Translations under genes and position numbers: made by a program | From: Deltaproteobacteria bacterium | GTDB taxonomy: Bacteria > Desulfobacterota > Syntrophorhabdia > Syntrophorhabdales > Syntrophorhabdaceae | Assembly (NCBI GenBank): GCA_029777945.1 | Contig: JAKORG010000083.1 | Coordinates: forward strand, 1 to 64,000 | DNA: 64,000 nt | Direction of reading: 5' to 3' | Shown here: one piece after another, positions 9,914 through 53,464 of the stretch | How positions within the stretch are numbered: the stretch's first letter is position 1 | Layout: the number at the start of each line of letters is the position of its first letter | Notes under the pieces: generated by a model | Databases searched by the model: none | What the model saw: the letters and a program-made list of their open reading frames with translations, nothing else | What the model was told of the DNA's origin: nothing

Positions 9914-9929
9914 TGGCATACTTATTGCT
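9914..9929 (+). promoter_or_regulatory. Sigma-54 promoter of the fliL operon
   Basis: TGGCATA-CTTA-TTGCT is a near-perfect -24/-12 element with GG-N10-GC spacing, 28 bases before the fliL start. A strong ribosome site (GAGGAGGTG) lies downstream of the expected transcription start near 9940. Confidence 0.82.
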
Positions 9930-27306: not shown

Positions 27307-27322
27307 TGGCACATATATTGCA
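27307..27322 (+). promoter_or_regulatory. Sigma-54 promoter of the flgF operon
   Basis: TGGCACA-TATA-TTGCA is a perfect -24/-12 element. The predicted transcription start (near 27333) is only about 7 bases before ATG 27340, so the leader would be extremely short and contain just GAGAG. Confidence 0.85.
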
Positions 27323-31538: not shown

Positions 31539-31554
31539 TGGCATGGCGTTTGCA
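31539..31554 (+). promoter_or_regulatory. Sigma-54 promoter of the flgJ operon
   Basis: TGGCATG-GCGT-TTGCA is a strong -24/-12 match in the gap between flgI and flgJ, with a GGGGAGG ribosome site downstream. Confidence 0.8.
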
Positions 31555-31591: not shown

Positions 31592-31939
31592 ATGGGTGAT
31601 GGAATAAAGTCAGGTGCAATGATAAATTTTCAGGCTCCATCGGCAAGTTTTTATACATCCCGCATTCTTAAAAGTAAACCAGGGGCAGATGGCTTGAATA
31701 TCGAAAAAGTTGCCCAGGATTTTGAATCTTATTTTCTTTATCTAATGCTAAAAGAAATGGAAAAGACCACAAACAGTTCCAATAAAAGCTATATGAAACA
31801 GACCTATATGTCCATAATGTATGAAAAGGTCGGTGATTATATGGCAAAAAAGGGGATAGGCTTAAAAGAGATGATTACTGAACATTTGCAAAAAAATATT
31901 AAAGTTTTAAAAGAAAAGGGCGATAATAATGGTAAGTAA
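31592..31939 (+). CDS. flgJ: FlgJ-type rod-binding protein (single domain)
   Basis: This 115-residue protein matches only the N-terminal rod-binding domain of FlgJ: VAQDFESYFLYLMLKEMEKT then YMSIMYEKVGDYMAKKGIGL. It lacks the muramidase domain of the gammaproteobacterial form, as is usual outside that group. It acts as a rod cap; another enzyme must open the peptidoglycan. flgM follows after 15 bases. Confidence 0.88.
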   Translation: MGDGIKSGAMINFQAPSASFYTSRILKSKPGADGLNIEKVAQDFESYFLYLMLKEMEKTTNSSNKSYMKQTYMSIMYEKVGDYMAKKGIGLKEMITEHLQKNIKVLKEKGDNNGK

Positions 31940-35657: not shown

Positions 35658-37232
35658 GTGAAAAAAAGACACAAAGAGAACAAAAATAAGCATGTTTATA
35701 AAAATTTAACATCACATAAGATTCAACAACCCAACACCCCTACCCTTTCTGTATGCATGATTGTAAAGAACGAAGAAAAAAACCTGCCAAGATTATTAGG
35801 CTCTATAAAGGGGCTTGCTGATGAGATTATTGTAGTTGATACAGGCTCAGAAGACAATACAGTAGAGATTGCAAAATCCTTTGGTGCAAAGGTCTATTTC
35901 TTTGAATGGTGTGATGATTTTTCTGCTGCCAGAAACGAATCCTTAAGGCATGCCACCTGTGATTATATACTCTGGCTTGACGGCGATGATGAGCTAAAAA
36001 AAGAAGAACACATTAAGATTAAAAATGCCCTTTCTAAAAACAGGGGATATGCCTTTTATCTCAAAATTAGAAGCATTACAGACAAGGGAGATACAGAGTG
36101 TATACAGATGAGGATGTTTCCCAGAAGAGAAGATATAAGGTTTGAGGGTAGCGTCCATGAGCAGGTTTATCCATCAATAGAGAGGGCAAAGATTCCCATG
36201 AGCTTATGTGATGCATTAATCATCCATCATGGATATAAGGAAAGTAGCGATAGTGATAATAAATTAAAAAGGAATCTTGAAATTCTTAAAAAGGACCTTG
36301 CCAGAGAACCTGATAACGTCTTGACCTTATTTTTTCTTGGAAGGACATTAAGGGGACTTAATCAATTGGAAGATTCAGCCTTTTACTATGACAGGATTAT
36401 TGAAAAAGGGAAAGATGATAGTAGATTAAAAACCACTGATTTGTATCAGATTACCTTATTTGAAAGGGCAGGGATTTTTGCATCAAATGGAAGGCTCAAA
36501 GAGGCAATTGATTTACTTGAAAACAATAGAAATGTAGGCAGTAAAGGTAGCAATAATATAATAGATTTTACCCTCGGTGAGCTGTATTATAAGTCAAAGG
36601 AATACGAAAAGGCATATAAGTATCTATATCGTATAAAGGATGTAAGCTTTAAAGAAGAGTTAGTGCCAATAGACTTAAAACTTATAAAAAATAATCTATA
36701 TCATTATCTCGGCGTATCTTCCCTTTTTGTAAAAGACTACAATACAGCAAAAAAATATATAGGCATTTCAATAGAATATGACCCTCAAAACCCCGAGAAC
36801 TATCATTACCTTATCCTCTGTGAGGAAAAACAGGGCAACATAAAAAAGGCAATAGATATCTGTTCAGAGGCATTAGAAAGATTCCATAACAATATATCCT
36901 TTATTAAAAAAAGGTTTCTTCTAAGACTCGAAAACGGATATCTTTACGACATAGATAAAGACTTACCTTTTTTTGAGCATGAAACCCAGGATGTTGAGAT
37001 TTTATGTGGCCTTTTACTTTTAAGCTCTATGAAGCTCTCCATTGATGGTATAACAAAATACTATAGTGCCATACAAAGGGCACTATTTTTACCTGTTATG
37101 CCCTTTCCTGAGGGGTATATGGAAGTAAAAAATAGGCTCAATGACCTTAATGAAAAAAAGGCACTGTCTCTAATGGAGAGGGTAATAGATACCTTTCTTA
37201 ATCTTCAAAACCAAAACGAGATTACCCTTTAA
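35658..37232 (+). CDS. Family 2 glycosyltransferase with TPR repeats, next to flagellin gene
   Basis: This 524-residue protein has an N-terminal GT2 domain (TLSVCMIVKNEEKNLPRLLG, EIIVVDTGSEDNTVEIAKSF, a LWLDGDDELK metal-binding motif). TPR-like helical repeats run from about residue 215 onward (LFFLGRTLRGLNQLEDSAFY, GELYYKSKEYEKAYKYLYRI, YHYLILCEEKQGNIKKAIDI). GT-TPR fusions modify proteins or bind polypeptide clients. The place between fliW and fliC suggests flagellin glycosylation. The start is probably GTG 35658, because an internal ATG would cut the first GT strand. There is no signal peptide. Confidence 0.82.
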   Translation: MKKRHKENKNKHVYKNLTSHKIQQPNTPTLSVCMIVKNEEKNLPRLLGSIKGLADEIIVVDTGSEDNTVEIAKSFGAKVYFFEWCDDFSAARNESLRHATCDYILWLDGDDELKKEEHIKIKNALSKNRGYAFYLKIRSITDKGDTECIQMRMFPRREDIRFEGSVHEQVYPSIERAKIPMSLCDALIIHHGYKESSDSDNKLKRNLEILKKDLAREPDNVLTLFFLGRTLRGLNQLEDSAFYYDRIIEKGKDDSRLKTTDLYQITLFERAGIFASNGRLKEAIDLLENNRNVGSKGSNNIIDFTLGELYYKSKEYEKAYKYLYRIKDVSFKEELVPIDLKLIKNNLYHYLGVSSLFVKDYNTAKKYIGISIEYDPQNPENYHYLILCEEKQGNIKKAIDICSEALERFHNNISFIKKRFLLRLENGYLYDIDKDLPFFEHETQDVEILCGLLLLSSMKLSIDGITKYYSAIQRALFLPVMPFPEGYMEVKNRLNDLNEKKALSLMERVIDTFLNLQNQNEITL

Positions 37233-37266: not shown

Positions 37267-37293
37267 TTAAGTTTTTTAATGCGTCTCCGATAA
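37267..37293 (+). promoter_or_regulatory. Sigma-28 promoter of flagellin
   Basis: TTAAGTTT-N11-TCCGATAA is an almost perfect FliA promoter. Transcription should begin near 37300, giving an 88-base leader before fliC. Confidence 0.88.
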
Positions 37294-37387: not shown

Positions 37388-38509
37388 ATGGCTTTTAGAA
37401 TCGCAACAAACGTAGCATCACTTAACACTCAAAGGTGGCTCTCAGTAGCCAATGCAGGGATGGCAAAATCCCTCGAAAGACTCTCTTCAGGTTATAAAAT
37501 CAACAAAGCAGCAGATGACGCAGCAGGTATCGGTATTGCCACAAAGTTGAATGTGAAGGCAGCAAGTGTTTCTAAGGCAATAGATAATGGTAATCAGGCA
37601 ATAGCAATGCTTCAGACTGCAGAAAGTGGTATAGAGCAGATTGCAAACATTCTAACAAGGCTAAAAGAGCTTGCAACCCAGGCAGCCTCAGATAATAATT
37701 CAACAGACAGGGCAGCCCTTGATAATGAAAGGTCGCAGCTTGAAACAGAGATCAATAAGATCGCCCAGAATACAAAGTATGGCTCTACATCACTCCTCCA
37801 AGGGGCAAATACTATATCATCATATGGTGCCAGTCTCACACCTGCTAATGGTATCTCAGCTATTGATGTATCAAGCGCAGCATTAACAGGTACTACTGCA
37901 TTTACTTTGACAGTATCTGCGGGAGCAACAACAACCCTTTCGCTTACAAGGGGATCGACAACCCAGACAGTGACTGTATCAAGACCTTCTGGTTTAAACA
38001 CTACTGTTGCAAACTTCAGCGACCTCGGTGTTAAAATAACAATCAATGCATCTATAGCAGATATTAGTGCGGCTAATGGTGTTTTTACAGTTACTGTTGG
38101 TACCTCTTCTTTTGACTATCAGTTAGGAGATGTAAACCAGAGCTATGACCAGATAGGTATAAGCATTAAGAACTTCCAGGCAAGTTCTACTGATGTTCTT
38201 AACATCTCTGGTGATATATCAACCAAAGATAATGCCAAGATATATCTCGGGATAATAGATACTGCCATCACGAACCTCAATACAGAAAGGGGTAAAATTG
38301 GTGCTGCCCAGAACCAGATATCATATCACATAGCAAACCTCGAGGCTATGTATGAGAACACAAGGGCAGCCCAGTCCACAATCAAGGATGCAGATTTCGC
38401 AGCAGAGATGGCGAACTTTACAAAGTTCCAGATAGTGACACAGTCTGGTGTTGCAATGCTTGCCCAGGCAAATCAGTTGCCACAGCTAATTCTATCTCTT
38501 ATGAGATAA
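37388..38509 (+). CDS. fliC: Flagellin
   Basis: This 373-residue protein has canonical D0/D1 ends: MAFRIATNVASLNTQRWLSV, RLSSGYKINKAADDAAGIGI at the N-terminus and NQISYHIANLEAMYENTRAA, ADFAAEMANFTKFQIVTQSG at the C-terminus. The middle (about 145-275) is Ser/Thr/Ala-rich and variable, the surface-exposed D2-like part and a likely target of glycosylation. It has a perfect ribosome site, a sigma-28 promoter and a structured leader. Only one flagellin gene is in the window. Confidence 0.98.
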   Translation: MAFRIATNVASLNTQRWLSVANAGMAKSLERLSSGYKINKAADDAAGIGIATKLNVKAASVSKAIDNGNQAIAMLQTAESGIEQIANILTRLKELATQAASDNNSTDRAALDNERSQLETEINKIAQNTKYGSTSLLQGANTISSYGASLTPANGISAIDVSSAALTGTTAFTLTVSAGATTTLSLTRGSTTQTVTVSRPSGLNTTVANFSDLGVKITINASIADISAANGVFTVTVGTSSFDYQLGDVNQSYDQIGISIKNFQASSTDVLNISGDISTKDNAKIYLGIIDTAITNLNTERGKIGAAQNQISYHIANLEAMYENTRAAQSTIKDADFAAEMANFTKFQIVTQSGVAMLAQANQLPQLILSLMR

Positions 38510-38550: not shown

Positions 38551-38572
38551 TATCTAACAGGTGGTGGCTGAT

Positions 38573-38923
38573 ATGGAGATATCAATAATAAATAACATAA
38601 AAACAAATTCAAAAGTAGTAGATAGGGTAGCACATGTTTCAACTGGAAAGACAGAGAATAAAGCCCCACAGGATTTAAAACCCGTATCCTCTACAATAAG
38701 AGAAAATGAAAAGATAGCAAAAGATATTGAAAAGATGCTCGAATTTTTTAAGCAAAATAGCTCTGTAAAGTTTCAATACGATAAATCAATAAACAGGGTT
38801 ATCATCCAGGTTTTAAATGGCAGCAATAATGAAGTGGTAAAGCAGATACCACCTGAAGACATAGTAAGGTTTTTAAAGGCTTTTAATGAACTAATCGGCA
38901 TTATTATAGATAAGGAGATCTAA
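38573..38923 (+). CDS. flaG: FlaG-family protein
   Basis: This protein of about 116 residues has the FlaG C-terminal domain: KFQYDKSINRVIIQVLNGSN, then EVVKQIPPEDIVRFLKAFNE. FlaG influences filament length in several bacteria and usually sits between flagellin and fliD, as here. ATG 38573 has an AGGTGG ribosome site; GTG 38561 is possible. It overlaps fliD by one base (TAATG). Confidence 0.9.
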   Translation: MEISIINNIKTNSKVVDRVAHVSTGKTENKAPQDLKPVSSTIRENEKIAKDIEKMLEFFKQNSSVKFQYDKSINRVIIQVLNGSNNEVVKQIPPEDIVRFLKAFNELIGIIIDKEI

Positions 38924-40296
38924 TGGCAGGAAATATCTCTTTAACAGGCCTTACAAGTAATATCAACTGGACAAACCTTATAAATGACATGTTAAATGCA
39001 AAAAAGGCTTCTACTATTACACCCCTTGAAAACAAGAAGTCCAATTATCAGGCAAAGCTCTCTGCATACCAATCTTTTAATAGCCTTTTGCTAAGCCTTA
39101 AAAACTATATAGAGGACAATAAACTCGATAAGACTTCAGGTTATAATATCTACAAATATAATCTCACATCATCAAATACGAACATAACGCCAGAAGATGT
39201 TATAGGCATCTCTCTTTCAACAGAAGCGAATATCGGTAACTACTCCATTGAGGTTACAAGTCTTGCCCAGGCAGAAAAGATTGCCTCTGATGCTCAGACA
39301 TCAAAGACTACTGCATTAGGATTATCTGGAACAATTACCGTAAACAGTAAAGAGATTGCTATAGAGACAGAGGATACGCTTCAGTCAATAGCATCAAAGA
39401 TAAATAGTGCCAGTGCCGGTGTTACTGCAAGTATTTTATCTATTTCAGATACAGAACATAGATTGACCCTTGAATCCCAATCAGAAGGCGCTGAAGGCAT
39501 TTCCCTAATAGATGGTAGTAACATCCTTAAAACACTTGGCATATTAGATGGGTTAGATCAAAAGAAAAATATCATAACAGCCGGTGCAGATGCATCCTTA
39601 AATATAGATGGTTACACCATATCATCTTCATCAAATACCGTGGCCAATGCCATATCTGGTGTTACGTTGACCTTAAAGAAGACAAATACAGGAGAACCCA
39701 TAAAATTAGCTATAACAGAAGACCAGAGTGCCATAAGCGGTAAGGTCTCTGCAATGGTAAGCAGCATTAACAGCATACTCAGTTATATCAAGACCCAGAA
39801 CACCTATTCTGGTGAAGGTTCAACATCTTCTCCTCTTATGGGTGACATAAACCTCCAGATGGTCCGTAATAACATAAACGATGTCGTATTCCAGGAGGTA
39901 GAGGGAAACTCTACATACACTACAGCCTCATCTATTGGCTTAACTTTTAGCAAAGATGGCACTTTAAGCCTAAACACCACAACCTTTAGTGATGCCTTAA
40001 GTGCCAACAGGACTGAAGTAATAAATGTCCTTACCCAGCTTGGTGATACCTTAAAGACAAATATGAATGTATATGTGAATCCCTTTACTGGAACTTTATC
40101 CCAGGTAGAAAAATCAATCAACGAGACAATAACCAGCATAGACAAAAGGATAGATGAATTAAACGAGCGTTTTGACAGGCAGATGGTAGAACTTGAGAAA
40201 AAATATAACAGCCTTGAACTTCTTATCTCTTCGTCTAATCTTATGAAGAACTGGCTTACACAGCAAATAGACTATATGAAAAAGAGTAACAGTTAA
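38923..40296 (+). CDS. fliD: FliD, filament cap
   Basis: This 457-residue protein has the FliD N-terminal domain (LTGLTSNINWTNLINDMLNA, SNYQAKLSAYQSFNSLLLSL), a beta-rich middle (SLAQAEKIASDAQT) and the C-terminal coiled coil (DKRIDELNERFDRQMVELEK). Five FliD molecules cap the filament and fold incoming flagellin. It is followed by fliS. Confidence 0.95.
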   Translation: MAGNISLTGLTSNINWTNLINDMLNAKKASTITPLENKKSNYQAKLSAYQSFNSLLLSLKNYIEDNKLDKTSGYNIYKYNLTSSNTNITPEDVIGISLSTEANIGNYSIEVTSLAQAEKIASDAQTSKTTALGLSGTITVNSKEIAIETEDTLQSIASKINSASAGVTASILSISDTEHRLTLESQSEGAEGISLIDGSNILKTLGILDGLDQKKNIITAGADASLNIDGYTISSSSNTVANAISGVTLTLKKTNTGEPIKLAITEDQSAISGKVSAMVSSINSILSYIKTQNTYSGEGSTSSPLMGDINLQMVRNNINDVVFQEVEGNSTYTTASSIGLTFSKDGTLSLNTTTFSDALSANRTEVINVLTQLGDTLKTNMNVYVNPFTGTLSQVEKSINETITSIDKRIDELNERFDRQMVELEKKYNSLELLISSSNLMKNWLTQQIDYMKKSNS

Positions 40297-40311
40297 AAAA
40301 GGGGGAAAAAG

Positions 40312-40812
40312 ATGACATTAAACGGCATCAAAAGTTATAAGAATACTGCAAACATTACTTCAGAGGAAGATAAAGGCCAGCTTCTTCTAAAGGTCTTTCA
40401 AAGGATACTTGAAAAGCTCGATTTGGCAGGTATTTATATAGAAAGCAAAAACTTTGAGAAAAGATACGAAGAGCTATCACAGATAAGACAGGTCCTTGAG
40501 ATACTGTATGACTGTGTTGATACCCAGTATGGTGAAATATCCCAAAATCTAAAGAACCTTTACCTTTACATTATAAAGCGCCTCGATGAGGCAAATGTAA
40601 AAAATGATATAAATGCAGTAATGGAATGCAAATCTCTTATAAAAACAATATACGAAGGTTTTGATGAGGCCTACAAAAAAGAGATAAGTGCTGGAAAAAA
40701 GAATCCCATTTCATCAGATATTTTATCAGTGGACTTAAAAAATAAAGAGATGCCGAACCTTAATTCAACAGTTAGCACCCCTACGGCAGGTGGATACAGA
40801 AGTTATCTCTAA
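40312..40812 (+). CDS. fliS: FliS, flagellin chaperone with long C-terminal tail
   Basis: This 166-residue protein has the four-helix FliS domain (QLLLKVFQRILEKLDLAGIY, VLEILYDCVDTQYGEISQNL, LYLYIIKRLDEANVKNDINA). FliS keeps flagellin from polymerising in the cytoplasm. The family is usually about 125-140 residues; the last ~35 here are a hydrophilic, Ser/Thr/Asn-rich tail. A GGGGGAAA ribosome site precedes the ATG. Confidence 0.9.
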   Translation: MTLNGIKSYKNTANITSEEDKGQLLLKVFQRILEKLDLAGIYIESKNFEKRYEELSQIRQVLEILYDCVDTQYGEISQNLKNLYLYIIKRLDEANVKNDINAVMECKSLIKTIYEGFDEAYKKEISAGKKNPISSDILSVDLKNKEMPNLNSTVSTPTAGGYRSYL

Positions 40813-40929: not shown

Positions 40930-40945
40930 TGGCACTTTTATTGCA
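40930..40945 (+). promoter_or_regulatory. Sigma-54 promoter of the glycosylation operon
   Basis: TGGCACT-TTTA-TTGCA is a near-perfect -24/-12 element. Transcription should begin near 40957, leading into the four-gene operon 41010-52442. Confidence 0.85.
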
Positions 40946-41009
40946 TATATTTTCATAGCTATTAAAGCAAGTCTGCAGGAATATATTTTTTTAAATTAAA
41001 GGGGCCCCT

Positions 41010-41939
41010 ATGAAGAAAAAAAATAAGAGAGTTAAGACAAAAAAGAAATCCCCCGGGATAATATCAAAAAGTACAGATAGAAGTGCGCACTTCACAGACG
41101 GAGATAGCTATTATTTCTATAATTTAGGCATGCTATTGGGAGAAAGAAAAAAAACAATAGTTCAGGTAGGTAGGGATAAGAAGTTTTTCGATGCCCTTGA
41201 AAAGGGGTTAAAGGCAGCTAATAGGTCAGGGATTGTATTTTATTGCGTTGACCCGGATTCAGTGAATGAAACATTAAATACAGGGAATAATCAAGGTATA
41301 TTTAACTCAGTTGAGTATATTTCTTTATCAGCCGTAGACTGTGCAAAGAGGTTTGAGGATAAAAGTATAGATGTTATTTTCCTTAAAGGTGGTTATGACT
41401 TTTATAATCTATACGATGTTATTGATGCATGGTATCCAAAACTGAAAGATAGTGGCTGGCTTTCAGGTTATTGCCTTTTTTATGACGAAGGCAATTTAGA
41501 AAGGTTTGCAGGGGAAAAGGGACTTGGTTTTTCAATACTTAAAAGACCTCTTACAGATAATATCTTTGAGCTATATCCAGAAGATATTGTATCTGGATTA
41601 AAAAAAATTCAAGATTATCTAAATTGTGGGATGCTTTTAGATGCTGACCAGGTTATAAATCGTATTATAACAGCGTATCCCCATTCGCCTTTTTTAACTA
41701 ATCTAAAGGCAGAGCTTGATTATAGGTGCGGAAAGACATTAGAGGCTAAAAAACAATTTGAAAGGATTATAGACATGTGGCCTTATCATGTAAGGGCAAT
41801 GAATAACCTCGGGGCAATTGAGGCAAACACAGGTTACCCAAAAAAGGCAAGGGCACTATTTGAAAAGGTCCTTGAGATTGACCCGGGTAACGAGGATGCA
41901 ATAGCATCTCTCGATGAGATGGGAAGATTAGGTCTTTAA
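41010..41939 (+). CDS. Methyltransferase-like domain fused to TPR repeats
   Basis: This 309-residue protein has a very basic N-terminus (MKKKNKRVKTKKKSPG) and a Rossmann-type class I methyltransferase-like region (about 35-195: KTIVQVGRDKKFFDALEKGL, IVFYCVDPDSVNET, SIDVIFLKGGYDFYNLYDVI, PKLKDSGWLSGYC). Two TPR units follow (about 205-305: FERIIDMWPYHVRAMNNLGA, GYPKKARALFEKVLEIDPGN). The methyltransferase core resembles families that act on glycans or their carriers, but the glycine motif is weak, so activity is uncertain. It is the first gene of the sigma-54 glycosylation operon. Confidence 0.72.
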   Translation: MKKKNKRVKTKKKSPGIISKSTDRSAHFTDGDSYYFYNLGMLLGERKKTIVQVGRDKKFFDALEKGLKAANRSGIVFYCVDPDSVNETLNTGNNQGIFNSVEYISLSAVDCAKRFEDKSIDVIFLKGGYDFYNLYDVIDAWYPKLKDSGWLSGYCLFYDEGNLERFAGEKGLGFSILKRPLTDNIFELYPEDIVSGLKKIQDYLNCGMLLDADQVINRIITAYPHSPFLTNLKAELDYRCGKTLEAKKQFERIIDMWPYHVRAMNNLGAIEANTGYPKKARALFEKVLEIDPGNEDAIASLDEMGRLGL

Positions 41940-41952
41940 GGGGGCTATATTT

Positions 41953-44010
41953 ATGTTTAATGGTGAACTCATTCCTACAAAAAGGGCGGTTATTGATGTA
42001 AACAGGGTTTGTAATGCAAAATGTAAGATGTGTTACTACACCTACGATAATACAAAATGGACAAAAACATCTGATGACATTAAAAAGGAATTAATAATGG
42101 CAAAAAAAAGGGGTAATACGTCTGTAGACTTCACAGGTGGAGAACCAACTATACACCCTGATATGCCTGATGTTGTTAGATTTGCAGAATCAATTGGTCT
42201 TCATACGTGCATTATAACAAACTCTATTGCATTGGATAAGATTAAAAGGATAGTTGATGCAGGCTGCAGGGAATGGCTTGTCTCAATTCATGGCTACGAA
42301 GACAAGCATGACGAGCTTTTAGGTGTCAAAGGCGCATGGGATAAGATGCTATCTACAGTAGATTATCTCAATAGTCAAAGTTGTTTTGTCAGGGTTAACT
42401 GCACACTTACCAGATATAATTACAGTGACCTTCCGACACTTGCAAAATTCTACATAGACTATGTAAAGGCAAGGATAGTCAACTTTATAAACTTCAATCC
42501 CCATTACCAGTGGGGTGAGGTAAGTCAGCCAGAGGTCTTTTCAAAACTAAATGAGGTTCAGATTAAGGTTTCAGAGGTAGCACCATTTCTCAAAGAAGCA
42601 CTTAAAATGCTTGAAGAATACAATACATGGGTCAATGTGAGGTATTATCCTTTTTGTATGTTAAAGGGTTATGAGACCCATATATGCAATAATCCGCAAG
42701 TCATGTTTGACCCTTATGAGTGGGACTATGGTGTTCATCCTAAAACAGAAGAAAAATATCTTGCCTATGCAAGGTATTTGCAGGCAAACATTAATTCTTG
42801 CGAGGATAAATGTGGTTCGTGTGGTATCTTAAACGTATGTGGTGGTATAAACAGAAATTACGCCAAAATACATGGATTTTCAGAGCTTGAGCCGTATTCT
42901 GAAGTGGCAGAACACCCTTATCATTTCAAAAAAGACCTTGAGGCAGATATAATAATACCTGCATATAAGCCTTCAAGGAACTTGCAATATCTTCTTAATG
43001 AGATAGTAGAAAAATCCATTCAGCCCTATAACATAGTCCTTGTATCAAAGATTCAAAGTGCAGCAAAAAACAGAAACTATGGACTTGAAAGGTCAAAAAG
43101 CCCCTACATAATAATGTGCGACGACGACATTCGCAATTTACCATACGGCTGGAACAGGGCTTTGATAGATGTATTAAAAGAAAACAGAGAAATCATAGCG
43201 GTCTCAGCAAGACTTATGAACCCAGACGGAACACCAGGCAGAAACACGGCCAATAATTTTGACCTTAAGACCCCACTTGTAAAGGTAGATTTTATACCTA
43301 CTGCCTGCTGTGCCATAAGAAGAACTGACATGAGGTTTGATGAGAGATACATAAGGGCAGGCTGGGAAGACACTGATTTCTTTATGCAGATGAAGTCATC
43401 TCTTTCTGGATACATTGTAATTTGCAACGCTGTGAAGGTGGTGCACCTAAACGAAGAAAAAAATGTAGGTGGGACGCAGAATTTATACAACGAAAGATTG
43501 TTTAAGGAAAAATGGTTAAAGAAAAAGACAGTTAAGGAAACCATAGAGGAGTTTATAGACAAAAGAGATTTCAAAGAGGCATTAAATCTACTACACACAG
43601 AACTGTCAAAAACACCAAATGATGCAGAACTACTTAGCCTTTTAGGCTGTATCATGATTGAAATAAACCAGATAGAAGACGCAATTGAATGTTATTATGG
43701 AGCAGCATTATTAAGACCCAACGATGCAAAAATTTTAGTTAATTTTATTGAGGCAAGTAAAAAGATAGAAAAATACGACCTTTTAGAAAAGTTTCTTAAA
43801 AAGATGATGGAACTCAATCCTGACATACCTGAATTTCCATATTTAATGGCAGAGTGCCTTTGCTGGCAGGGTAGATTCAGTGAGGCCATAGATTTGCTGG
43901 ATACTAATATAAAAAGATTTCCCGGCCACAAGGAATCTAAAATGCTAAAGAATTCTCTAACTGAATCTGTTAAAGGCCGTAATAATCTGAATGCAGATTG
44001 GGGATTATAA
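41953..44010 (+). CDS. Radical SAM protein fused to glycosyltransferase-like and TPR domains
   Basis: This 685-residue protein starts with a radical SAM domain (C20-x3-C24-x2-C27 in NRVCNAKCKMCYYTYDN; FTGGEPTIHPDM next). A SPASM-like Cys cluster lies near residues 282-297 (CEDKCGSCGILNVCGG). It continues with a GT-A fold (about 332-520: ADIIIPAYKPSRNLQYLLNE, MCDDDIRNLPYGWNRALIDV with a DDD motif) and ends in TPR repeats. SPASM radical SAM enzymes often modify peptides, so a peptide- or glycan-modifying role is possible. The next gene starts 3 bases after its stop. Confidence 0.8.
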   Translation: MFNGELIPTKRAVIDVNRVCNAKCKMCYYTYDNTKWTKTSDDIKKELIMAKKRGNTSVDFTGGEPTIHPDMPDVVRFAESIGLHTCIITNSIALDKIKRIVDAGCREWLVSIHGYEDKHDELLGVKGAWDKMLSTVDYLNSQSCFVRVNCTLTRYNYSDLPTLAKFYIDYVKARIVNFINFNPHYQWGEVSQPEVFSKLNEVQIKVSEVAPFLKEALKMLEEYNTWVNVRYYPFCMLKGYETHICNNPQVMFDPYEWDYGVHPKTEEKYLAYARYLQANINSCEDKCGSCGILNVCGGINRNYAKIHGFSELEPYSEVAEHPYHFKKDLEADIIIPAYKPSRNLQYLLNEIVEKSIQPYNIVLVSKIQSAAKNRNYGLERSKSPYIIMCDDDIRNLPYGWNRALIDVLKENREIIAVSARLMNPDGTPGRNTANNFDLKTPLVKVDFIPTACCAIRRTDMRFDERYIRAGWEDTDFFMQMKSSLSGYIVICNAVKVVHLNEEKNVGGTQNLYNERLFKEKWLKKKTVKETIEEFIDKRDFKEALNLLHTELSKTPNDAELLSLLGCIMIEINQIEDAIECYYGAALLRPNDAKILVNFIEASKKIEKYDLLEKFLKKMMELNPDIPEFPYLMAECLCWQGRFSEAIDLLDTNIKRFPGHKESKMLKNSLTESVKGRNNLNADWGL

Positions 44011-44012
44011 AA

Positions 44013-47000
44013 ATGCAACTGAACCAATGCGTGCCTCAGGCTATTTTTATACAGCTTGCAACTGCCTGCAATGCAAAATGTATCAACTGCCCTTACATCT
44101 TTACTTACGGAGAAAAAGGTACACATAAAAAGGGAGTTATGGACGACAATGTATGGATCAAGATTGTCCACGATTTGAAAGCTATGAACTTTACAGGACA
44201 GGTTGGTTTCTACCTGCATCACGAACCTTTGCTTGTAAATTCACTTTTCGATAAGGTCGAGGACATAAATAGCAACACAAAGGCCTTTGTCGTCATTTCC
44301 ACTAATAGATTTTTACTGACAAAAGAAAAGAGGAAAGCCTTAATCTCATCAAAACCACGAGTTGTGCACATCAATATTAATTCTGGTGATAAGGCAGAAT
44401 ATGAGTTAATGACTGGCTTAGTTTTCGATATTACAATTGAGAATACTAAGAGTTTTATTGAGGAAGCAAAAGGCAAGATTCATATAGAGATAAACTGTCC
44501 GGTGTTGCCAGGAGTTGATACTGATTTGTTAAAGAATTTGTTTCCAGATGTGCAGGTCAATACGGATTATATGGCAACATCCAGGGGAGGTACCTTAACA
44601 TGGGTTTATTGTAAATCATATTTAAACAGATTTAATCTTGAAAGTTACTGTTATCAACCTATTATAAACTTCAACATTCTTTATGATGGCAGTGTTATTC
44701 TATGCTGTAATGACTGGCTTCATAAAACCAAAGGTTTGTTTTCAAAAGTGACAGAAAGCTCTATCTTTGAAATATATAACTCTGAACTAATGAAAAAAAT
44801 TAGAGCTGAGTTTAAAAAAGGTGATTATAGTAGATTCTCTATGTGTACTTATTGTGCAAAGGAGATGGGCTTTACTATAACAAAAGAAAATGACAACTTA
44901 GCATCATTACATAAGGCCGTCTCATCTGATTTAAAACCAGTTAAAAGGGTACTTCTTACCAATATTAGGATGTTAGATTTTACAGGGAGTGAAATTTACA
45001 CGATGACACTTGCCAAAGGTTTGCGTAAGAGTGGAATAGATACTATCGTATATTCCAAATTTATTGGGGGAGTCATTGAGGCAGAACTAAATAGGGCTGG
45101 CATTCCTTTAGTAAACGACATTAATAAAATAAAAGAAGAGAAATTTGATCTGATACATGCCCATCATAATATAAACGCAATGGAACTCAGGTACCACTTT
45201 CCGGACATATCCATGGTATACATGTCTCATGGAGTTTTACCTGCCTTGGAACAACCTCCTTTTATTGATATCGGTATTGATTTATTTCTCGCGGTAAGTG
45301 AAGAGGTTAGACAGAATCTCATCAATAATGGAGTACCGGAGGAGAGGGTTCTCATATTGAGAAATATGGTGGATTCTGAATTATTCAGAGAGTTAAGACC
45401 TGTAAATAAAGTACCGAAGAAGGTTTTGATCTTTAGCTACAAACTCAACGAACAGATGATTCTTGAGATTAAAAACTCCTGTAAGCGCCTGGGACTTGCA
45501 TGTATAGAAGCGGGAAACTGGGATAATCCTGTGCATTACTATGATTTGCCTTACCTTATGAATGATGTGGACATAGTGATTTCATCTGGCAGAGGCATCA
45601 TAGAAGCGATGCTATGTGGAAGGATCCCTTTAGTCATCGACAGGGGTTACATGGATGGTATGGTCACTCCTTATAACATACGGGAACTCATGAAGTGCAA
45701 TTTTTCGGGAAGAAGGTACCGTATCAATTTTTCCAGAGAGACGTTTGAGTCTGAGATAGAGAAGTACAACCATTTATATGGCCAGGAACTCAGAAAAATA
45801 TCGGTTGAGCTTTTCTCTGCTGATTATCTGATAAATCGCCTGGTTCAGATTTATATTGGTGTTTTACTCAGAAGAGAGAAAGAAAAACACACCAGAAAAG
45901 AACTTCCTGTAATCTTAGAAAAAATCCTGTCTTGCTATAGTGAAATCATAAACGTTAGCTCAAATCATGGGGCAAGATTTCACGGGGGATCTGTCCGGTA
46001 CAAAAGAGTAGGCCCGTCTATTCAACTGGAAGGACATCGTACAAATATTCGAATCCCTTCTGGAGAGATAACCAGTATTCATTCCGGAGACAATTTTCCT
46101 CAGCAGAACGCCGGAAATCTTACATGCCCAGAGAAAAAATTGGTTCATCCTATAGCTTTTTATCTGCCTCAATACCATCCTATCCCTGAAAATGACAATT
46201 GGTGGGGTGAAGGTTTTACGGAGTGGACAAATGTGAGATCCGCAGTCCCTCTCTTTGAAGGACACATACAGCCAAGAATTCCCACTGAACTTGGCTGGTA
46301 TGATTTGCATGATCTCGATGTGATTAAAAAGCAAGTTGAGTTTGCCAGGGAACATGGTATTTACGGGTTCTGTTTTTATCATTACTGGTTTAATGGAAAA
46401 CTTCTACTTGAAAAACCACTTGAGAACTTTCTCAATTGTTCTGAAATAGACTTCCCTTTCTGTCTTTGCTGGGCAAACGAAGATTGGACAAGGGCATGGG
46501 ACGGAAGAAGTGGAGAGGTACTCATCAAGCAGGAGTATTCAGCGGAAGATGATTTATCCCATATCCGTTATCTTATTCCGTTCCTCAAAGATGAAAGATA
46601 CATAAAAGTGGATGGAAAGCCTCTTCTTCTCGTCTACAGGATAAGCAAACTTCCCGATCCTTTGAAAACCACAGAAGTCTGGAGAGAGGAAGCTAAAAAA
46701 GCAGGAATAGGGGAACTATTCTTGTGTAGTGTAGAAAACTTTCCCGAGGACCGTAGAGATCCAAGACATTTCGGTTTTGATGCATCTATTGAATTTCAGC
46801 CAGACTTTGTAAATCTTGGAAATCCTCTTCCGCCCGAAAAATATAACGGAGTAAGGGTTTACGACTATAGGCAGGTAGTGGCAGAAATGCTTCGTAAGGA
46901 ACCAGCCGATTATCCTCGGTTTTTCTGCGTTTTTCCTCAGTGGGATAATACCCCCCGAAGAAAGAAGGATGGCCTTGCTATTATAAATTCAAACCCTGAC

Positions 47001-48998
47001 ACTTATGGCTACTGGCTCGCAGAATCTATAAGAAGAACACTGAAAGCCTTTCCAGAAGGAAGACGTTTGGTCTTCATAAATGCCTGGAATGAGTGGGGCG
47101 AGGGGAATATGCTTGAGCCTGACTCGGTCTGGGGAAGAAGGTACTTAGAAGTTACTAAAAAAGCAGTATCAGATTATGAAAAATTCGACCCTCTGCAAGA
47201 GAAACTGGAACAAATCGAGAGATTATCAGAAAATGGAGAACTCGAAGAGGCAAAGAAACTTGCCTTGTCACTGATCGAGGACCATCCGTATCACCCAATG
47301 TTACTCAACGAACTTGCAGGAATATTTTACAGGGAAGGCGATAAAACAAATGCAATGATCTACCTGAAAAAGGCAGCAGCGTTAAAACCTGATGATATTT
47401 TAATTCTCAAAAATCTTGGGAACATATATATAGAACTTGGAAAGAACGTTGAGGCAGAAAAAATGTTCGAAAAAGTTATTACAATTGACCCTGAAGATAG
47501 TGAATCTCAACAGATTCTTTCATTTCTGAGACACGAACATGAGAAAAAAGATGTTAATAAGCCTTTAGTGTCCATTGTGATTCCCGTTCTTAACAATTTG
47601 GATTTTACCATAAGATGTATCGATTCCATCTTAAAATGTGAGACTGAAATACACTACGAGGTTATAATCGTTGATAACGGTTTCACAGATGAAATAATGG
47701 ACTATTTTACTTCCTTAAAAAATCCAAGTGTCCGTTACGTTCAGTACGAGGAGAACTTGGGTCCTGTTGGAAGTTGCAATAAGGCAGTAGAGGAAGCACA
47801 AGGCGACTTCATTTTTCTTTTGGTTCCGGAAATACAACCGAGAGGAGATTGGCTTAAACCAATGCTGGAGCTTGTGAGTGAGAATAGGGCGACTGCAGTA
47901 ACATCCAAGATAGTTGGTCATGATGAGAGGATAGTTGAAGCAGGGTTTTCTGTTTTTGAGAAAGAAAAATTAGTGGGTAATGGTGAGGGGCACAACAAGA
48001 ACGAAAGCCAGTACAACCATGCATGTAATGCCAAGTCTGGTTCAAGGTATTCAATATTCATCTCAAAAAAAGACTGGATAGAATCAGGAGGTCTTGACAG
48101 CAGATATAGTAGCATCCACATAGCATTGGTTGATATGGGTTTGAACTTGATATCTATGGGAAAGCAGATTCTTTATCAACCTCAAAGTGAGTTTTCGATT
48201 CAGGTAACTGGTAAAGAGGAACTCGGGAAGAGAAGACCACAGATTTTATTCGATTTTTCTAATCAGGTAGAAAACGAGACACGTTCAAAGGTTCTTGTGT
48301 TAGGTGTCTACCTTGCCGAACAACTAAATTTCATCGAGGACATAGTAGAAAGATTTGCAGAATCAAAAAATCATGATGTAGAACAGTATTGGATTTCAAT
48401 TGGTTCAGAAAGAGTAGATAAAAAAGTCCAGGAAGTAACAGTAAAGGTAGTCTATGACAGAACGCCTAAATTTGTACTAATGAATGAGCTGCTCTCTCAG
48501 AAAAATTTGAGTGAATATGAATATATAATTATTGCTGACGATGACATTATTCTTCCCTATGGTTTTCTGGATGAATTTCTGCACTTGCAATCAAAATATG
48601 AATTTGTGCTCGCCCAACCCGCCAGAACTACCAATTCATACATTGACCATCCTATAGTTATGCAACAAAGAGACGTTATTGCAAGACAAACAAAATTCGT
48701 TGAGATTGGACCTTTATTTAGTGTTCATAATTCAATCTATGACTTTATATTTCCCTTTGATACTATATCCCCTATGGGATGGGGGTATGAAAATTACTGG
48801 TCATACGAATTATCAAGAAGAGGCTATAAAATGGGTATTATAGACAATACCCCTGTAGACCACAGCATTAGGAAACCTGTTAAGAATTATGAATGGAGTG
48901 AGGCTGACAGACAAAGAAGAATCTATTTACAGAAGTATCCGCATCTTAAATATGAAGACTGCTTCGTAGTAACAGATGTAATAAGTTTGAGAGGGTAA
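44013..48998 (+). CDS. Giant multidomain protein: radical SAM, GT4, WbsX, TPR, GT2 and a second GT-like domain
   Basis: This protein has about 1661 residues. Domains by approximate residue: radical SAM 1-210 (C19, C23, C26 in ATACNAKCINCPY) with SPASM-type Cys 212-283 (VILCCNDW, CTYCAKEMGF); GT4-like 310-612 (LTNIRMLDFTGSEIYTMTLA); WbsX/GH99-like 709-1049 (AFYLPQYHPIPENDNWWGEG, WANEDWTRAWDGR, NAWNEWGEGNMLEP); TPR 1055-1175; GT2 1184-1406 (VSIVIPVLNNLDFTIRCIDS); C-terminal GT-like 1421-1661 (IIIADDDIILPYGFLDEF, GWGYENYWSYELSRRGY). There is no membrane segment. WbsX domains occur in polysaccharide synthesis. It probably builds or transfers a glycan; substrate unknown. Confidence 0.8.
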   Translation: MQLNQCVPQAIFIQLATACNAKCINCPYIFTYGEKGTHKKGVMDDNVWIKIVHDLKAMNFTGQVGFYLHHEPLLVNSLFDKVEDINSNTKAFVVISTNRFLLTKEKRKALISSKPRVVHININSGDKAEYELMTGLVFDITIENTKSFIEEAKGKIHIEINCPVLPGVDTDLLKNLFPDVQVNTDYMATSRGGTLTWVYCKSYLNRFNLESYCYQPIINFNILYDGSVILCCNDWLHKTKGLFSKVTESSIFEIYNSELMKKIRAEFKKGDYSRFSMCTYCAKEMGFTITKENDNLASLHKAVSSDLKPVKRVLLTNIRMLDFTGSEIYTMTLAKGLRKSGIDTIVYSKFIGGVIEAELNRAGIPLVNDINKIKEEKFDLIHAHHNINAMELRYHFPDISMVYMSHGVLPALEQPPFIDIGIDLFLAVSEEVRQNLINNGVPEERVLILRNMVDSELFRELRPVNKVPKKVLIFSYKLNEQMILEIKNSCKRLGLACIEAGNWDNPVHYYDLPYLMNDVDIVISSGRGIIEAMLCGRIPLVIDRGYMDGMVTPYNIRELMKCNFSGRRYRINFSRETFESEIEKYNHLYGQELRKISVELFSADYLINRLVQIYIGVLLRREKEKHTRKELPVILEKILSCYSEIINVSSNHGARFHGGSVRYKRVGPSIQLEGHRTNIRIPSGEITSIHSGDNFPQQNAGNLTCPEKKLVHPIAFYLPQYHPIPENDNWWGEGFTEWTNVRSAVPLFEGHIQPRIPTELGWYDLHDLDVIKKQVEFAREHGIYGFCFYHYWFNGKLLLEKPLENFLNCSEIDFPFCLCWANEDWTRAWDGRSGEVLIKQEYSAEDDLSHIRYLIPFLKDERYIKVDGKPLLLVYRISKLPDPLKTTEVWREEAKKAGIGELFLCSVENFPEDRRDPRHFGFDASIEFQPDFVNLGNPLPPEKYNGVRVYDYRQVVAEMLRKEPADYPRFFCVFPQWDNTPRRKKDGLAIINSNPDTYGYWLAESIRRTLKAFPEGRRLVFINAWNEWGEGNMLEPDSVWGRRYLEVTKKAVSDYEKFDPLQEKLEQIERLSENGELEEAKKLALSLIEDHPYHPMLLNELAGIFYREGDKTNAMIYLKKAAALKPDDILILKNLGNIYIELGKNVEAEKMFEKVITIDPEDSESQQILSFLRHEHEKKDVNKPLVSIVIPVLNNLDFTIRCIDSILKCETEIHYEVIIVDNGFTDEIMDYFTSLKNPSVRYVQYEENLGPVGSCNKAVEEAQGDFIFLLVPEIQPRGDWLKPMLELVSENRATAVTSKIVGHDERIVEAGFSVFEKEKLVGNGEGHNKNESQYNHACNAKSGSRYSIFISKKDWIESGGLDSRYSSIHIALVDMGLNLISMGKQILYQPQSEFSIQVTGKEELGKRRPQILFDFSNQVENETRSKVLVLGVYLAEQLNFIEDIVERFAESKNHDVEQYWISIGSERVDKKVQEVTVKVVYDRTPKFVLMNELLSQKNLSEYEYIIIADDDIILPYGFLDEFLHLQSKYEFVLAQPARTTNSYIDHPIVMQQRDVIARQTKFVEIGPLFSVHNSIYDFIFPFDTISPMGWGYENYWSYELSRRGYKMGIIDNTPVDHSIRKPVKNYEWSEADRQRRIYLQKYPHLKYEDCFVVTDVISLRG

Positions 48999-49004
48999 TT
49001 TCAT

Positions 49005-52000
49005 ATGAGGTCACAAAATCCTTTGATTAGCGTCATTATACCGACATACAACAGAGCTGATTTACTCAGGTCATCACTTGAAAGCCTTTTAAGGCAAAAA
49101 TTATCAAAAAGCGCTTTTGAAGTTATAGTTGTAAACGATGGCTCAACAGATAGCACGGAAGACATTTGTCAGTCATTTCGTCAACTTATGGATATTAAAC
49201 ACGTGTATCAAAGAAATTCAGGTATATCAGCAGCGAAAAACCTTGGTATCTTGTTGTCAAGAGCCCCATTTCTTCTATTTTTTGATGATGACGACATTGC
49301 AGAGAACGATCTTTTAGCTCAACACGCAAGATTTCATATGCAATATAAGGATGAAAATATCGCGTGTCTCGGTTTTACTACATGGCATCCAAGTCTGAAT
49401 GTAACACCTGTTATGGAATATATAACTGAAATAGGACAATTCCTGTTTTCATATAAAAGCCTAAAACACGGTCAAGAGCTTGATTTTACCTATTTCTGGG
49501 GAGGACGAACTTCGTGTAAGAGGTCCTTTCTTGTCAAACATGGGATCTTCAATCAAGACTTTACCTCCATCATTGAAGACATAGAACTTGGTTACAGGCT
49601 ATCCAAATTCGGTCTGAAAGTTATTTTTAACAAGGATGCTAAAAGTTACATGATTAGACCCATTACATACGACCAGTTCTGCGCGAGATGTGAGAGAACA
49701 GGAAATGCTCTTTACCTTTTCAGCACGTTGCATCCAGACCCTGTTGTGCAGAAATACTGTATAAGACCGATGGCAGAAAAAAAATGGGGCCAAATACGAG
49801 AACAAATAGAGCAGGTAGTAGATAAAGTGCATGAGATTGAGTCGCATCTATTTTCCCATGACGTGTCAGAGACACAGAGACGCTTGCTTCTGGACGAGTT
49901 ATATAAGTTATATGAGTGGAGTTTCACTGCATTCAAGATCAAGGGGATTATAAATGCAAGAGAAAGTAAAAAACATATCATTGACCATATTGATAGAGGT
50001 TCGATAAGCGAAAAAGATGTATCTCTTTACAAAGAAAAATGGAAGTCTTTACCACATGAAAGTAGATTGAAAATATTGGTGATAGACCATTTTCTTCCAA
50101 TGTTTGATAGGGCATCCGGTTCCTTGAGACTGTTCAATATAATTAAGGCACTAAAAACGTTAAAGAACCATGTTACATTTCTTGCATTAAATAACGACTT
50201 TGAGTCTACCTATAGACCCATACTGGAAGACCTGGGAGTGGAAACATATACGTTACAGAACTTAGTAACACAAGGAAAAAATAGGATTAAAGAATGGCTT
50301 GAAACTTCAGAATTTGAGTGGGCTATTATTGAATTCTGGAAAACTGGACAGACATGGATTCCAGTTATAAGAAATATTACCCCACATACGAAGATTATAG
50401 TCGACTCTGTAGATATTCACTTTGTAAGAGAAATCAGAGAGGCCGAGTTAGCCAATGATAGAGAGTTACTTCGTAAGGCTTTTAAGAATAAGAAAGAAGA
50501 GATTGATACCTACAGGCTTGCAGATAGAGTCTGGGTAGTTACAGACAAGGATAAAGAGGCTGTCGAGCAATTTTTACCTGGGATCCCCATAGACATCATC
50601 CCAAATATACATGAAAGGATTCAGATAAACAAAATATTCGAAGACACATCTGATTTACTTTTTGTAGGAAATTTTAATCATCCTCCAAATAGAGACGCTG
50701 TGTTCTTCTTCTGTAAAGAGATATTTCCACTGATAAAAAAAGAGCTCAGAGATGTGAAGCTCTATATAGTCGGCAATAATCCTCAAGATGATATAAGGAG
50801 TCTTACCTGTGATGACATAATCATAACAGGATATGTTGAGGATTTATCGCCATATCTTTCAAAATCCCGCATATCTGTTGCTCCACTCAGATACGGTGCG
50901 GGCATGAAAGGCAAAATAGGCGAGGCCTTATCCTGGGGTTTACCTGTAGTTACAAGCTCAATCGGTGCTGAGGGCATGGGTCTTATAGATGGAATCCATG
51001 TGCAGATTGCCGATAATCCTCATGAATTTGCAGAAAAGGTAATAAGGCTATATAAGGACAAAGAACTTTGGCTCAAGCTATCCGAAGAAGGAAAAAAATT
51101 TATAGAGGAAAATTATTCATCTGAGGCTGTTGAAAAAAGACTAAAAGAAGTTTTCTCTGAAACAAATGCACAAGAAAAGATTTTTAGTGAGGTAGTGCAG
51201 GATACAAAAGTGGATAAAAAATGCGTTTTTGTTGCCAGATTGGAAGCCATAGATTTCCCAGAACCGAATTTCAAAGACATACTGACAAGTATTATCATCC
51301 CTGTAAAAGACAACTGGGATTATACGAAGGCCTGTCTTGAGTCAGTAGTAAGATATACCGATGTTCCATACGAGATTGTGATAGTTGATAACGGCTCAGA
51401 GGAGCCCATTTTCCAGTATGTCAAAAGGTGGAAAGATAGAAATGAGAAGATACCAGTAAGATATCTCCGTTTTAATGAGAACAAAGGATTCGCAGGGGGA
51501 TGCAATGGAGGTGCTTTGGTCTCATCAGGGGATTATCTTGTGTTTTTGAATAATGATACCCTTGTTACCCCCAGCTGGCTTAAAGGGCTGTTAAAGCCTA
51601 TTATTTCAGACAATTCTATCGGTATAACGGGTCCTGTGTCAAACTATGTAAATGGGGGGCAGAGAATAAAAGATTGTCCCATTGCCTTTAAATCACCTGC
51701 TAATATTGATTTTGGGAAATTAGTAGCCTATGCTTCAAGTATCTCAAATAAGAATTCAAACACCTATATGTTTACCGAGGTGGTAATGGGTCTTTGCCTT
51801 GCAATAAAGAAGGAATTATTCGATGGAATAGGTGGCTTTGATGAGATGTTCTATCCGGGAAATTTTGAGGACGCTGATCTCTCCATGCGTATCCACAGGA
51901 TGGGATTAAAACCAGTAATATGTATGGATGTCTTTGTATACCATTTTGGGAATAAGACATTTGGCTCCAAAGAGACCGATTACAAAGATGCATACAAAAA

Positions 52001-52442
52001 AAACCTCGCACGATTTAGGGATAAATGGAAGGCCATCTCTCCAATGGATGAAGAATCTATGTATCATTACATTTTATCCCATAGTTCCCTTATAGATAAA
52101 GAGGCCGTCCCCACAAAACAAAACGAGATACACCATCTTATCTGGACCTTTGATGAAAAGACAATAAAAGATATCATAGGATTTTATTTAAAAGGTGATC
52201 TTCATAAAAAGATGCCCTTAATTATTGCCAGTAATGGACAGAATTTAGAAAAAGAGGCACAGCTTTTACAGGATGCATATCCAGATGGAGAGCTTGAGGA
52301 AAAAGGGGACATCACACTTTTTGACGGGGGTCTAAAAGAACTATTAAGTCAGATAGAAAAGGAAAAAAGACTGTTTATATACTCTTTTAAAAGTAGTATC
52401 TCCCAAGATGTCATAAAATCAGAGTCCATGCTTTTAGTATAG
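49005..52442 (+). CDS. Triple glycosyltransferase (GT2-GT4-GT2)
   Basis: This 1145-residue protein has an N-terminal GT2 (LISVIIPTYNRADLLRSSLE, VIVVNDGSTDST, FFDDDD metal motif). A GT4-type domain spans about 355-720 (KILVIDHFLPMFDRASGSLR, FVGNFNHPPNRDAVFFFCKE, APLRYGAGMKGKIGEALSWG) and a second GT2 about 755-1030 (SIIIPVKDNWDYTKACLESV, GFAGGCNGGALVSSGDYLVF). The last ~110 residues are of unknown fold. It could add several sugars in sequence. It follows the giant gene by 6 bases and ends the operon; the stop is TAG. Confidence 0.85.
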   Translation: MRSQNPLISVIIPTYNRADLLRSSLESLLRQKLSKSAFEVIVVNDGSTDSTEDICQSFRQLMDIKHVYQRNSGISAAKNLGILLSRAPFLLFFDDDDIAENDLLAQHARFHMQYKDENIACLGFTTWHPSLNVTPVMEYITEIGQFLFSYKSLKHGQELDFTYFWGGRTSCKRSFLVKHGIFNQDFTSIIEDIELGYRLSKFGLKVIFNKDAKSYMIRPITYDQFCARCERTGNALYLFSTLHPDPVVQKYCIRPMAEKKWGQIREQIEQVVDKVHEIESHLFSHDVSETQRRLLLDELYKLYEWSFTAFKIKGIINARESKKHIIDHIDRGSISEKDVSLYKEKWKSLPHESRLKILVIDHFLPMFDRASGSLRLFNIIKALKTLKNHVTFLALNNDFESTYRPILEDLGVETYTLQNLVTQGKNRIKEWLETSEFEWAIIEFWKTGQTWIPVIRNITPHTKIIVDSVDIHFVREIREAELANDRELLRKAFKNKKEEIDTYRLADRVWVVTDKDKEAVEQFLPGIPIDIIPNIHERIQINKIFEDTSDLLFVGNFNHPPNRDAVFFFCKEIFPLIKKELRDVKLYIVGNNPQDDIRSLTCDDIIITGYVEDLSPYLSKSRISVAPLRYGAGMKGKIGEALSWGLPVVTSSIGAEGMGLIDGIHVQIADNPHEFAEKVIRLYKDKELWLKLSEEGKKFIEENYSSEAVEKRLKEVFSETNAQEKIFSEVVQDTKVDKKCVFVARLEAIDFPEPNFKDILTSIIIPVKDNWDYTKACLESVVRYTDVPYEIVIVDNGSEEPIFQYVKRWKDRNEKIPVRYLRFNENKGFAGGCNGGALVSSGDYLVFLNNDTLVTPSWLKGLLKPIISDNSIGITGPVSNYVNGGQRIKDCPIAFKSPANIDFGKLVAYASSISNKNSNTYMFTEVVMGLCLAIKKELFDGIGGFDEMFYPGNFEDADLSMRIHRMGLKPVICMDVFVYHFGNKTFGSKETDYKDAYKKNLARFRDKWKAISPMDEESMYHYILSHSSLIDKEAVPTKQNEIHHLIWTFDEKTIKDIIGFYLKGDLHKKMPLIIASNGQNLEKEAQLLQDAYPDGELEEKGDITLFDGGLKELLSQIEKEKRLFIYSFKSSISQDVIKSESMLLV

Positions 52443-52591: not shown

Positions 52592-53464
52592 TTAATGGTG
52601 GGCCGGCGTTGTATGGGTTGTGGTAGTGCCAGTTGAACCTGTTGCAGCTACTATACCTGCTGCAATTGCTGCAGCACCAGCTACGCCTGCTGCAACAGTC
52701 CCTGCACCAATACCTGCTGCAGTTGCTGTGCCGGCTGTTGTCCCTGCCGCGCCTGCTGCACCTGTTGTAGCCGTGCCTGTAGTTGTTGTCCCAGTGGTTG
52801 CTGCACCTGGGGCTGCAGCACCTGGTTGAAATACAACTAAATTCCACTGATTCATAATACCCTGAAGGGCTGCTGCTGAAAATGGAACTGGGACTGTAGG
52901 TATGGCACCTGCAAGGACAGTTGTAAAATTACCTGCAGTAACTGTCACAACCTGTGTGGGAAAAGCAGGGTTAAAAACAGATACTGACTGCGATATGGCA
53001 TAGATGGTAGTGCCAGGGTTATCAGTAACAACGGTCAACCATTCAGTGCCCCTTGCACCTGCTACTGCCGTTGGGGTGCGAACCTCAAATTTTGAATCGG
53101 GGTCTAAAAACTTCTCTACCTTTGTGTGTAGTGCCCCTGTTCTTAAAGATACAATGCTTTGTCTTTTGTTTTTTTCAAGAAGATACTCTGTAATCTCAAC
53201 CTTAGAGTTGTGTCCTATATTTAATAAGCTATCATCTGTTAACAAAAGCCTTGCCCTTGATAAATTTCCTGTGGTAACAAAATCCTTTGTCTTAACATTA
53301 TCATTTACATTAGGTTTTAATTTTGCCTTTTCCCTTTCTAATGTTACATCACCTCTTATATCAGCAAATTTTCCAATTGTCTCTGCAAAAATGGGTAAAG
53401 GTAATGCCAACTGGATAACTATAAATAATATAAAAAAATACCTTAAAGATGATAAAATTTTCAT
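52592..53464 (-). CDS. Secreted FecR-domain protein with Ala/Gly/Thr low-complexity tail
   Basis: This 290-residue protein has a signal peptide (about 1-27, ending IFAET) and a FecR domain: IGKFADIRGDVTLEREKAKL, NVKTKDFVTTGNLSRARLLL, TDDSLLNIGHNSKVEI and FEVRTPTAVAGARGTEW. After a short beta-rich part, residues ~215-290 are almost only A, G, T, V and I (GTTTTGTATTGAAGAAG and similar), ending in a His-rich tip. It is probably periplasmic or surface-exposed. FecR domains here are not necessarily sigma-factor regulators, since no ECF sigma gene is adjacent. The tail could be a hydrophobic or aggregation-prone anchor. Confidence 0.82.
   Translation of the reverse strand: MKILSSLRYFFILFIVIQLALPLPIFAETIGKFADIRGDVTLEREKAKLKPNVNDNVKTKDFVTTGNLSRARLLLTDDSLLNIGHNSKVEITEYLLEKNKRQSIVSLRTGALHTKVEKFLDPDSKFEVRTPTAVAGARGTEWLTVVTDNPGTTIYAISQSVSVFNPAFPTQVVTVTAGNFTTVLAGAIPTVPVPFSAAALQGIMNQWNLVVFQPGAAAPGAATTGTTTTGTATTGAAGAAGTTAGTATAAGIGAGTVAAGVAGAAAIAAGIVAATGSTGTTTTHTTPAHH

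Follow-up and report, generated by a model that had tools for sequence, protein, structure and literature searches.

A putative flagellin-directed glycan operon with radical SAM modules downstream of fliS

What do four tightly spaced large genes that join radical SAM, glycosyltransferase (GT) and TPR modules build, and on what, when they lie directly downstream of flagellar filament genes? Flagellin glycans influence motility, recognition of the cell surface and attack by phages; those known so far are built, for the most part, from simple sugars or from nonulosonic acids that are formed beforehand. We analysed a stretch of 64,000 nucleotides, here called the window, and we read the operon, genes A to D, as a putative flagellin-directed glycan assembly line with radical SAM sugar tailoring, to which we give a probability of about 0.7.

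The operon and its promoter

The features of the window on which the argument depends are the following:

from 35246: fliW, a neighbour of the operon (Pfam)
35658 to 37232, plus strand: GT2-TPR gene (GT2 and TPR by Pfam), between fliW and fliC
37268 to 37293, plus strand: sigma-28-like site TAAGTTT-N11-TCCGATAA upstream of fliC, read by eye
37388 to 38509, plus strand: flagellin gene fliC, 373 aa, the presumed substrate
38561 to 40812, plus strand: flaG, fliD and fliS (starts at 38561, 38923 and 40312), conserved genes of the filament, which anchor the slot
40930 to 40945, plus strand: sigma-54 -24/-12 site TGGCAC-N5-TTGCA, exact consensus, upstream of gene A
41010 to 41939, plus strand: gene A, 309 aa, methyltransferase-like (Methyltransf_24) and TPR (Pfam)
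41953 to 44010, plus strand: gene B, 685 aa, Radical_SAM (72 bits), GT2 and TPR (Pfam)
44013 to 48998, plus strand: gene C, 1661 aa, Radical_SAM, SPASM, GT4, WbsX, TPR, GT2 and a DUF707-like end
48213 to 48998, plus strand: C-terminal module of gene C, about 260 aa, conserved, GT-A-like
49005 to 52442, plus strand: gene D, 1145 aa, GT2-GT4-GT2 (Pfam)

The initial annotation had described these four genes as tightly spaced, and their coordinates, sizes and gaps (13, 2 and 6 bases for A-B, B-C and C-D) all hold. The domain make-up that it gave was likewise recovered with Pfam, the Methyltransf_24-like domain of gene A scoring narrowly below the cutoff (23.5 vs 26.3 bits), and the flagellin, cap and chaperone genes that it placed beside the operon are there, since fliC, flaG, fliD and fliS lie directly upstream. 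Gene B carries the motifs CNAKCKMC and GGEP, an extra Cys cluster at 283-296 and, in its GT2 part, DDD at 390 and EDTDFF. The length of gene C was counted from an ATG, the listed TTG start at 43998 being one that would run into gene B. Its WbsX domain (PF14307) matches almost over the full profile (5e-135, 450.9 bits vs a cutoff of 25.1, positions 2-349 of 350), with no meaningful match among solved structures, and its DUF707-like end scores under the Pfam cutoff. By Pfam, the operon has several glycosyltransferase genes, as is looked for in flagellin islands. Convergent with its 3' end, at 52592-53464 on the minus strand, there is a FecR-domain gene.

Regarding transcription, the site at 40930 is one of two sigma-54 sites without mismatch in the window, the other lying at 27307 beside a flgF/flgG-type rod gene. 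Sites with one mismatch were found at 9914, upstream of fliL, and at 31539, upstream of a small rod/hook-region gene. Four such sites are by number not far above chance, as 7 of 100 shuffles reach four; all four are placed at flagellar genes. The genome has rpoN, and one-mismatch sites precede the islands of G042, G038, G014 and L038. This placement is consistent with the earlier proposal that the operon uses the promoter class of the hook genes. fliC has a sigma-28-like site, and therefore the operon would be made with an earlier flagellar class, before flagellin, as far as can be inferred from the promoters. The small gene behind the site at 31539 (31592-31939, 115 aa) has no Pfam match.

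The flagellin and the slot downstream of fliS

The flagellin at 37388-38509 is the sole canonical flagellin in the genome. It has no cysteine and 30% Ser/Thr in its central region, and because of both features an O-linked glycan is to be expected; S-linked glycosylation of this flagellin is ruled out by the lack of Cys. The GT2-TPR gene at 35658-37232, which is absent from the initial annotation, is kept at the same place in eight other genomes (G003, G010, G014, G017, G018, G033, G038 and G042) with 39-46% identity. The top NCBIfam match of its product is the SunS peptide S-glycosyltransferase (TIGR04195), at 96.8 bits and below the family cutoff of 350. SunS is also a GT2 that glycosylates a polypeptide, but it modifies Cys, which the flagellin of the window does not have. 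The order of domains is GT2 and then TPR, different from the N-terminal TPR and C-terminal GT-B that define the FlmG class. The product is probably the core flagellin glycosyltransferase, and a good candidate for the one that starts the glycan.

The region downstream of fliS differs in glycan genes among the family members with a readable locus; by this gene content, the slot is a glycan island that varies within the family. The slot of G003 holds an acyltransferase, an oxidoreductase, DegT aminotransferases, a methyltransferase, an epimerase, GTs and a B12-binding radical SAM protein; those of G017 and G033 have a B12-binding radical SAM gene too. In G010 there are a dTDP-sugar epimerase, a dehydratase, an FkbM methyltransferase, GTs and a radical SAM gene barely over the cutoff. 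Sugar-nucleotide biosynthesis genes, which flagellin islands usually, though not always, contain and which the islands of G003 and G010 do have, are not found among A-D. Counting the window (G000), at least 5 of 7 family members (G000, G003, G010, G017 and G033) have a radical SAM gene no more than about 10 kb downstream of fliS; the copy of G014 is slightly past 10 kb and G018 has none. By the genome density of such genes, around 1 of 7 loci would be expected to have one, and the calculated value of 0.001 for this enrichment is indicative only, as the genomes are related. The initial annotation had called radical SAM and GTs in the same chains unusual for flagellar islands; radical SAM beside GTs is undescribed in the literature searched, but radical SAM genes recur in the islands of the relatives. 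Another trait of G000 and its family is the large number of molybdenum hydroxylase (xanthine dehydrogenase-type) large-subunit paralogs, with about nine matches in this genome.

Homologs and fused proteins across the phylum

A search with gene D covered 395 genomes of the phylum. Its seven best homologs (G042, G162, G324, G304, G323, G265 and G175; E <= 1e-118) are all near filament genes, that is, within about 10 kb of fliC, fliD, fliS or flagellin-like genes, and none of the nine weaker homologs checked is (Fisher p about 1e-4, for a cut between both groups that was set after the scores were known, at a clear gap). Among the phylum loci examined, copies of the C-terminal module of gene C were found only beside filament genes (G042, G162, G304, G323 and G324). 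This module has 63% identity in G042 and 54% in L039, and a partial AlphaFold model of it (pLDDT 59, pTM 0.63) resembles GT-A nucleotide-sugar folds. G042 has both a full-length D homolog (53%) and a protein with GT2 and the end of gene C downstream of fliS, like the window.

In G162, G304 and G324, flagellin or flagellin-like genes are adjoined by genes for single chains of around 3300-3700 aa, in which radical SAM, TPR and glycosyltransferase domains are combined with the end of gene C. By their domains these giants would be, in effect, fused versions of genes A-C. The giant of G162, a MAG deposited as Deltaproteobacteria, is found near a flagellin-like gene (L039/L225 2850-13700); it has 3616 aa with a B12-binding domain, three radical SAM domains, WbsX, TPR, GTs including GT2, and the end of gene C. 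That of G304 has 3274 aa with two radical SAM domains, two SPASM stretches, a methyltransferase and TPR, and that of G324 has about 3700 aa with WbsX, radical SAM, a methyltransferase and TPR. The flagellin-like neighbours in G162 and G304 are divergent (G162: Flagellin_N, 3e-12). WbsX-GT giants adjoin fliC also in a Nitrospirae genome (L038) and in G050. In G162 and G304 the D homologs are fused to the GT2-TPR protein, which ties the operon to the gene beside fliC. Synteny and the domain fusions of phylum genomes lend good support to the earlier proposal that flagellin is the target and that the GT modules build a glycan on it. The set of modules is a defined one, which this genome distributes over four genes and related genomes fuse, and synteny gives it a defined and testable substrate, one cysteine-free flagellin.

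A search of genomes for the same four genes next to fliC had also been suggested. The complete A-D set was found only in this genome, whereas the homologs of D, of the end of gene C and of the fused proteins do lie near filament genes. Gene B as a query matches every one of the 60 relatives searched through generic radical SAM and TPR, and only long matches were counted, namely G001 (69%) and G012 (67-68%). The radical SAM-GT4 part of gene C was found in none of the 60. G001 is flagellated and its B homolog adjoins a D-like GT4-GT2 protein; a flagellin was not found in its assembly. In G012 the homolog is a fragment at a contig end (L035 3651-5084) with a Cys to Phe change at one residue of the C-terminal cluster, and no rod gene, flagellin or FliS was detected in this MAG. 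The contig looks genuine and not like a mis-binned contaminant, since a congener has an 86% homolog of the gene next to the fragment. The fragment may be what remains after a loss of flagella, or the assembly could be missing the flagellar cluster. Regarding relatives without flagella, in which the initial annotation had asked for the operon to be absent, this fragment of B is the single case.

Radical SAM modules and the readings of the operon

The radical SAM domains of B and C are over the PF04055 cutoff, and their CX3CX2C and GGEP-type motifs are intact. The closest solved structure to gene B is BlsE (1e-15), a radical SAM sugar decarboxylase (PMC3715490), although its score against the BlsE family (TIGR04466) is 74.1 bits, far below the cutoff of 400, and gene B is almost as near to other SPASM enzymes, both heme and peptide enzymes. 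The closest to gene C is BtrN (2e-7), an aminocyclitol dehydrogenase with one auxiliary cluster and four Cys ligands (PMC9012708). In gene C, Cys 213, 231, 278 and 281 form a Twitch-like pattern, C-x17-C-x46-C-x2-C, and predict an auxiliary cluster; the match to NF033640 Twitch is under the cutoff. The pattern of BtrN is C-x17-C-x44-C-x2-C. Since B is nearest to BlsE, and C to BtrN with four matching Cys, sugar tailoring by these modules is weakly favoured. BlsE and BtrN are free-standing enzymes of antibiotic pathways, to which B and C are only weakly similar.

Genes A-D would then be the strain-specific part of a flagellin-glycosylation island. We infer the following order of steps. Sigma-54 transcription would yield A-D in the basal-body expression class, ahead of flagellin with its sigma-28-like promoter. 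In the cytoplasm, the GT2-TPR protein would put the first sugar on Ser/Thr in the middle of flagellin, and not on Cys, as there is none. The TPR segments of A, B and C may hold flagellin or partners. Extension of the chain would fall to the GT2, GT4 and WbsX modules that B, C and D carry, decarboxylation or oxidation of sugars to the radical SAM modules of B and C, and methylation of sugars to the methyltransferase of A. The decorated flagellin would then be exported with FliS. Binding of flagellin by the TPRs is plausible by precedent, as FlmG of Caulobacter is a flagellin-binding TPR fused to a glycosyltransferase that modifies flagellin in the cytoplasm (PMC7591256), and as a TPR that directs the GT to flagellin is reported for Maf-1 (cited in PMC13317340). 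The FlmG case is alike in having TPR and glycosyltransferase in one chain; it differs in that its TPR is N-terminal and its GT-B C-terminal, whereas here a GT2 (GT-A type) precedes the TPR, or several GTs and radical SAM are in one chain.

More tentatively, we propose a TPR-tethered cytoplasmic line in which radical SAM-GT fusions edit the sugars of flagellin by decarboxylation, oxidation or C-alkylation, which would give filament glycans outside the reach of ordinary sugar-nucleotide pathways. Radical SAM, glycosyltransferases and TPR in the same chains would imply chemical editing of the glycan while it is being assembled, and if so the line would exist in one-protein form in the chains of 3300-3700 aa of related genomes.

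The operon might also glycosylate flagellin but have radical SAM modules whose target is the flagellin polypeptide, or which have degenerated into binding modules. SPASM/Twitch enzymes are often peptide-acting (PMC9012708), an obvious SPASM tail is missing from the radical SAM domains internal to the G162 and G324 proteins, and Salmonella FliB, with a [4Fe-4S] cluster, methylates lysines of flagellin (PMC8598068). FliB resembles the modules of B and C, by description of its function, as an iron-sulfur, SAM-dependent flagellin modifier, and differs in methylating lysine. Nevertheless, the closest solved relatives of these modules act on a sugar or an aminocyclitol and the modules share chains with GTs, while the intact motifs speak against degeneration; we therefore consider this reading unlikely. 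To our knowledge FliB is not fused to a GT or TPR.

Still less probable is a role of the operon in making a polysaccharide of the cell surface (LPS, capsule or exopolysaccharide), with its place after fliS being incidental. Such loci commonly contain GT2, GT4 and WbsX genes, most WbsX genes of the phylum are single-domain and away from flagellin, and the fragment of B in G012 comes without detected flagellar genes. However, homologs of D, of the end of gene C and of the giants are recurrently beside filament genes, D is found fused to the fliC-adjacent GT2-TPR protein, and among the Pfam domains of the operon no lipid-carrier initiating transferase, flippase or polymerase was seen. Finally, decoration of another exported flagellar protein (FliD, FlgK, FlgL or FlaG) in place of the filament subunit is very improbable, since a conserved GT2-TPR gene is directly upstream of fliC and known TPR-GTs modify flagellin (PMC7591256), even if fliD lies between fliC and the operon and FliD has 25% Ser/Thr.

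The flagellin-directed assembly line resembles the Maf/nonulosonic acid flagellin islands of Clostridium, Campylobacter and Aeromonas (PMC13317340, PMC4065374) in its variable glycan genes beside fliC/fliD, its GTs and the replacement from strain to strain, and in Clostridium GT2 proteins with TPR are predicted as flagellin glycosyltransferases (PMC13317340, PMC4065374), as in the window. The operon differs from these islands by its lack of a sugar-nucleotide pathway, and by megaproteins joining radical SAM, WbsX, GTs and TPR, which are undescribed in the literature searched. Our search of open-licence literature gave no relevant paper on radical SAM with flagellin glycosylation and none on WbsX with flagellin. 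By gene content the island itself seems to be of a known kind, and it is for the combination of radical SAM-GT-TPR giants beside flagellin that we found no published description.

In a scan of WbsX in named genomes, a flagellin match within 10 kb was found in 8 of 80 loci, and the loci were mostly single-domain WbsX in unrelated glycan loci. In Thauera, Pseudomonas lopnurensis, Dactylopiibacterium and Comamonas (L041, L042, L043, L060, L069 and L085), WbsX proteins are encoded no more than 10 kb away from flagellin.
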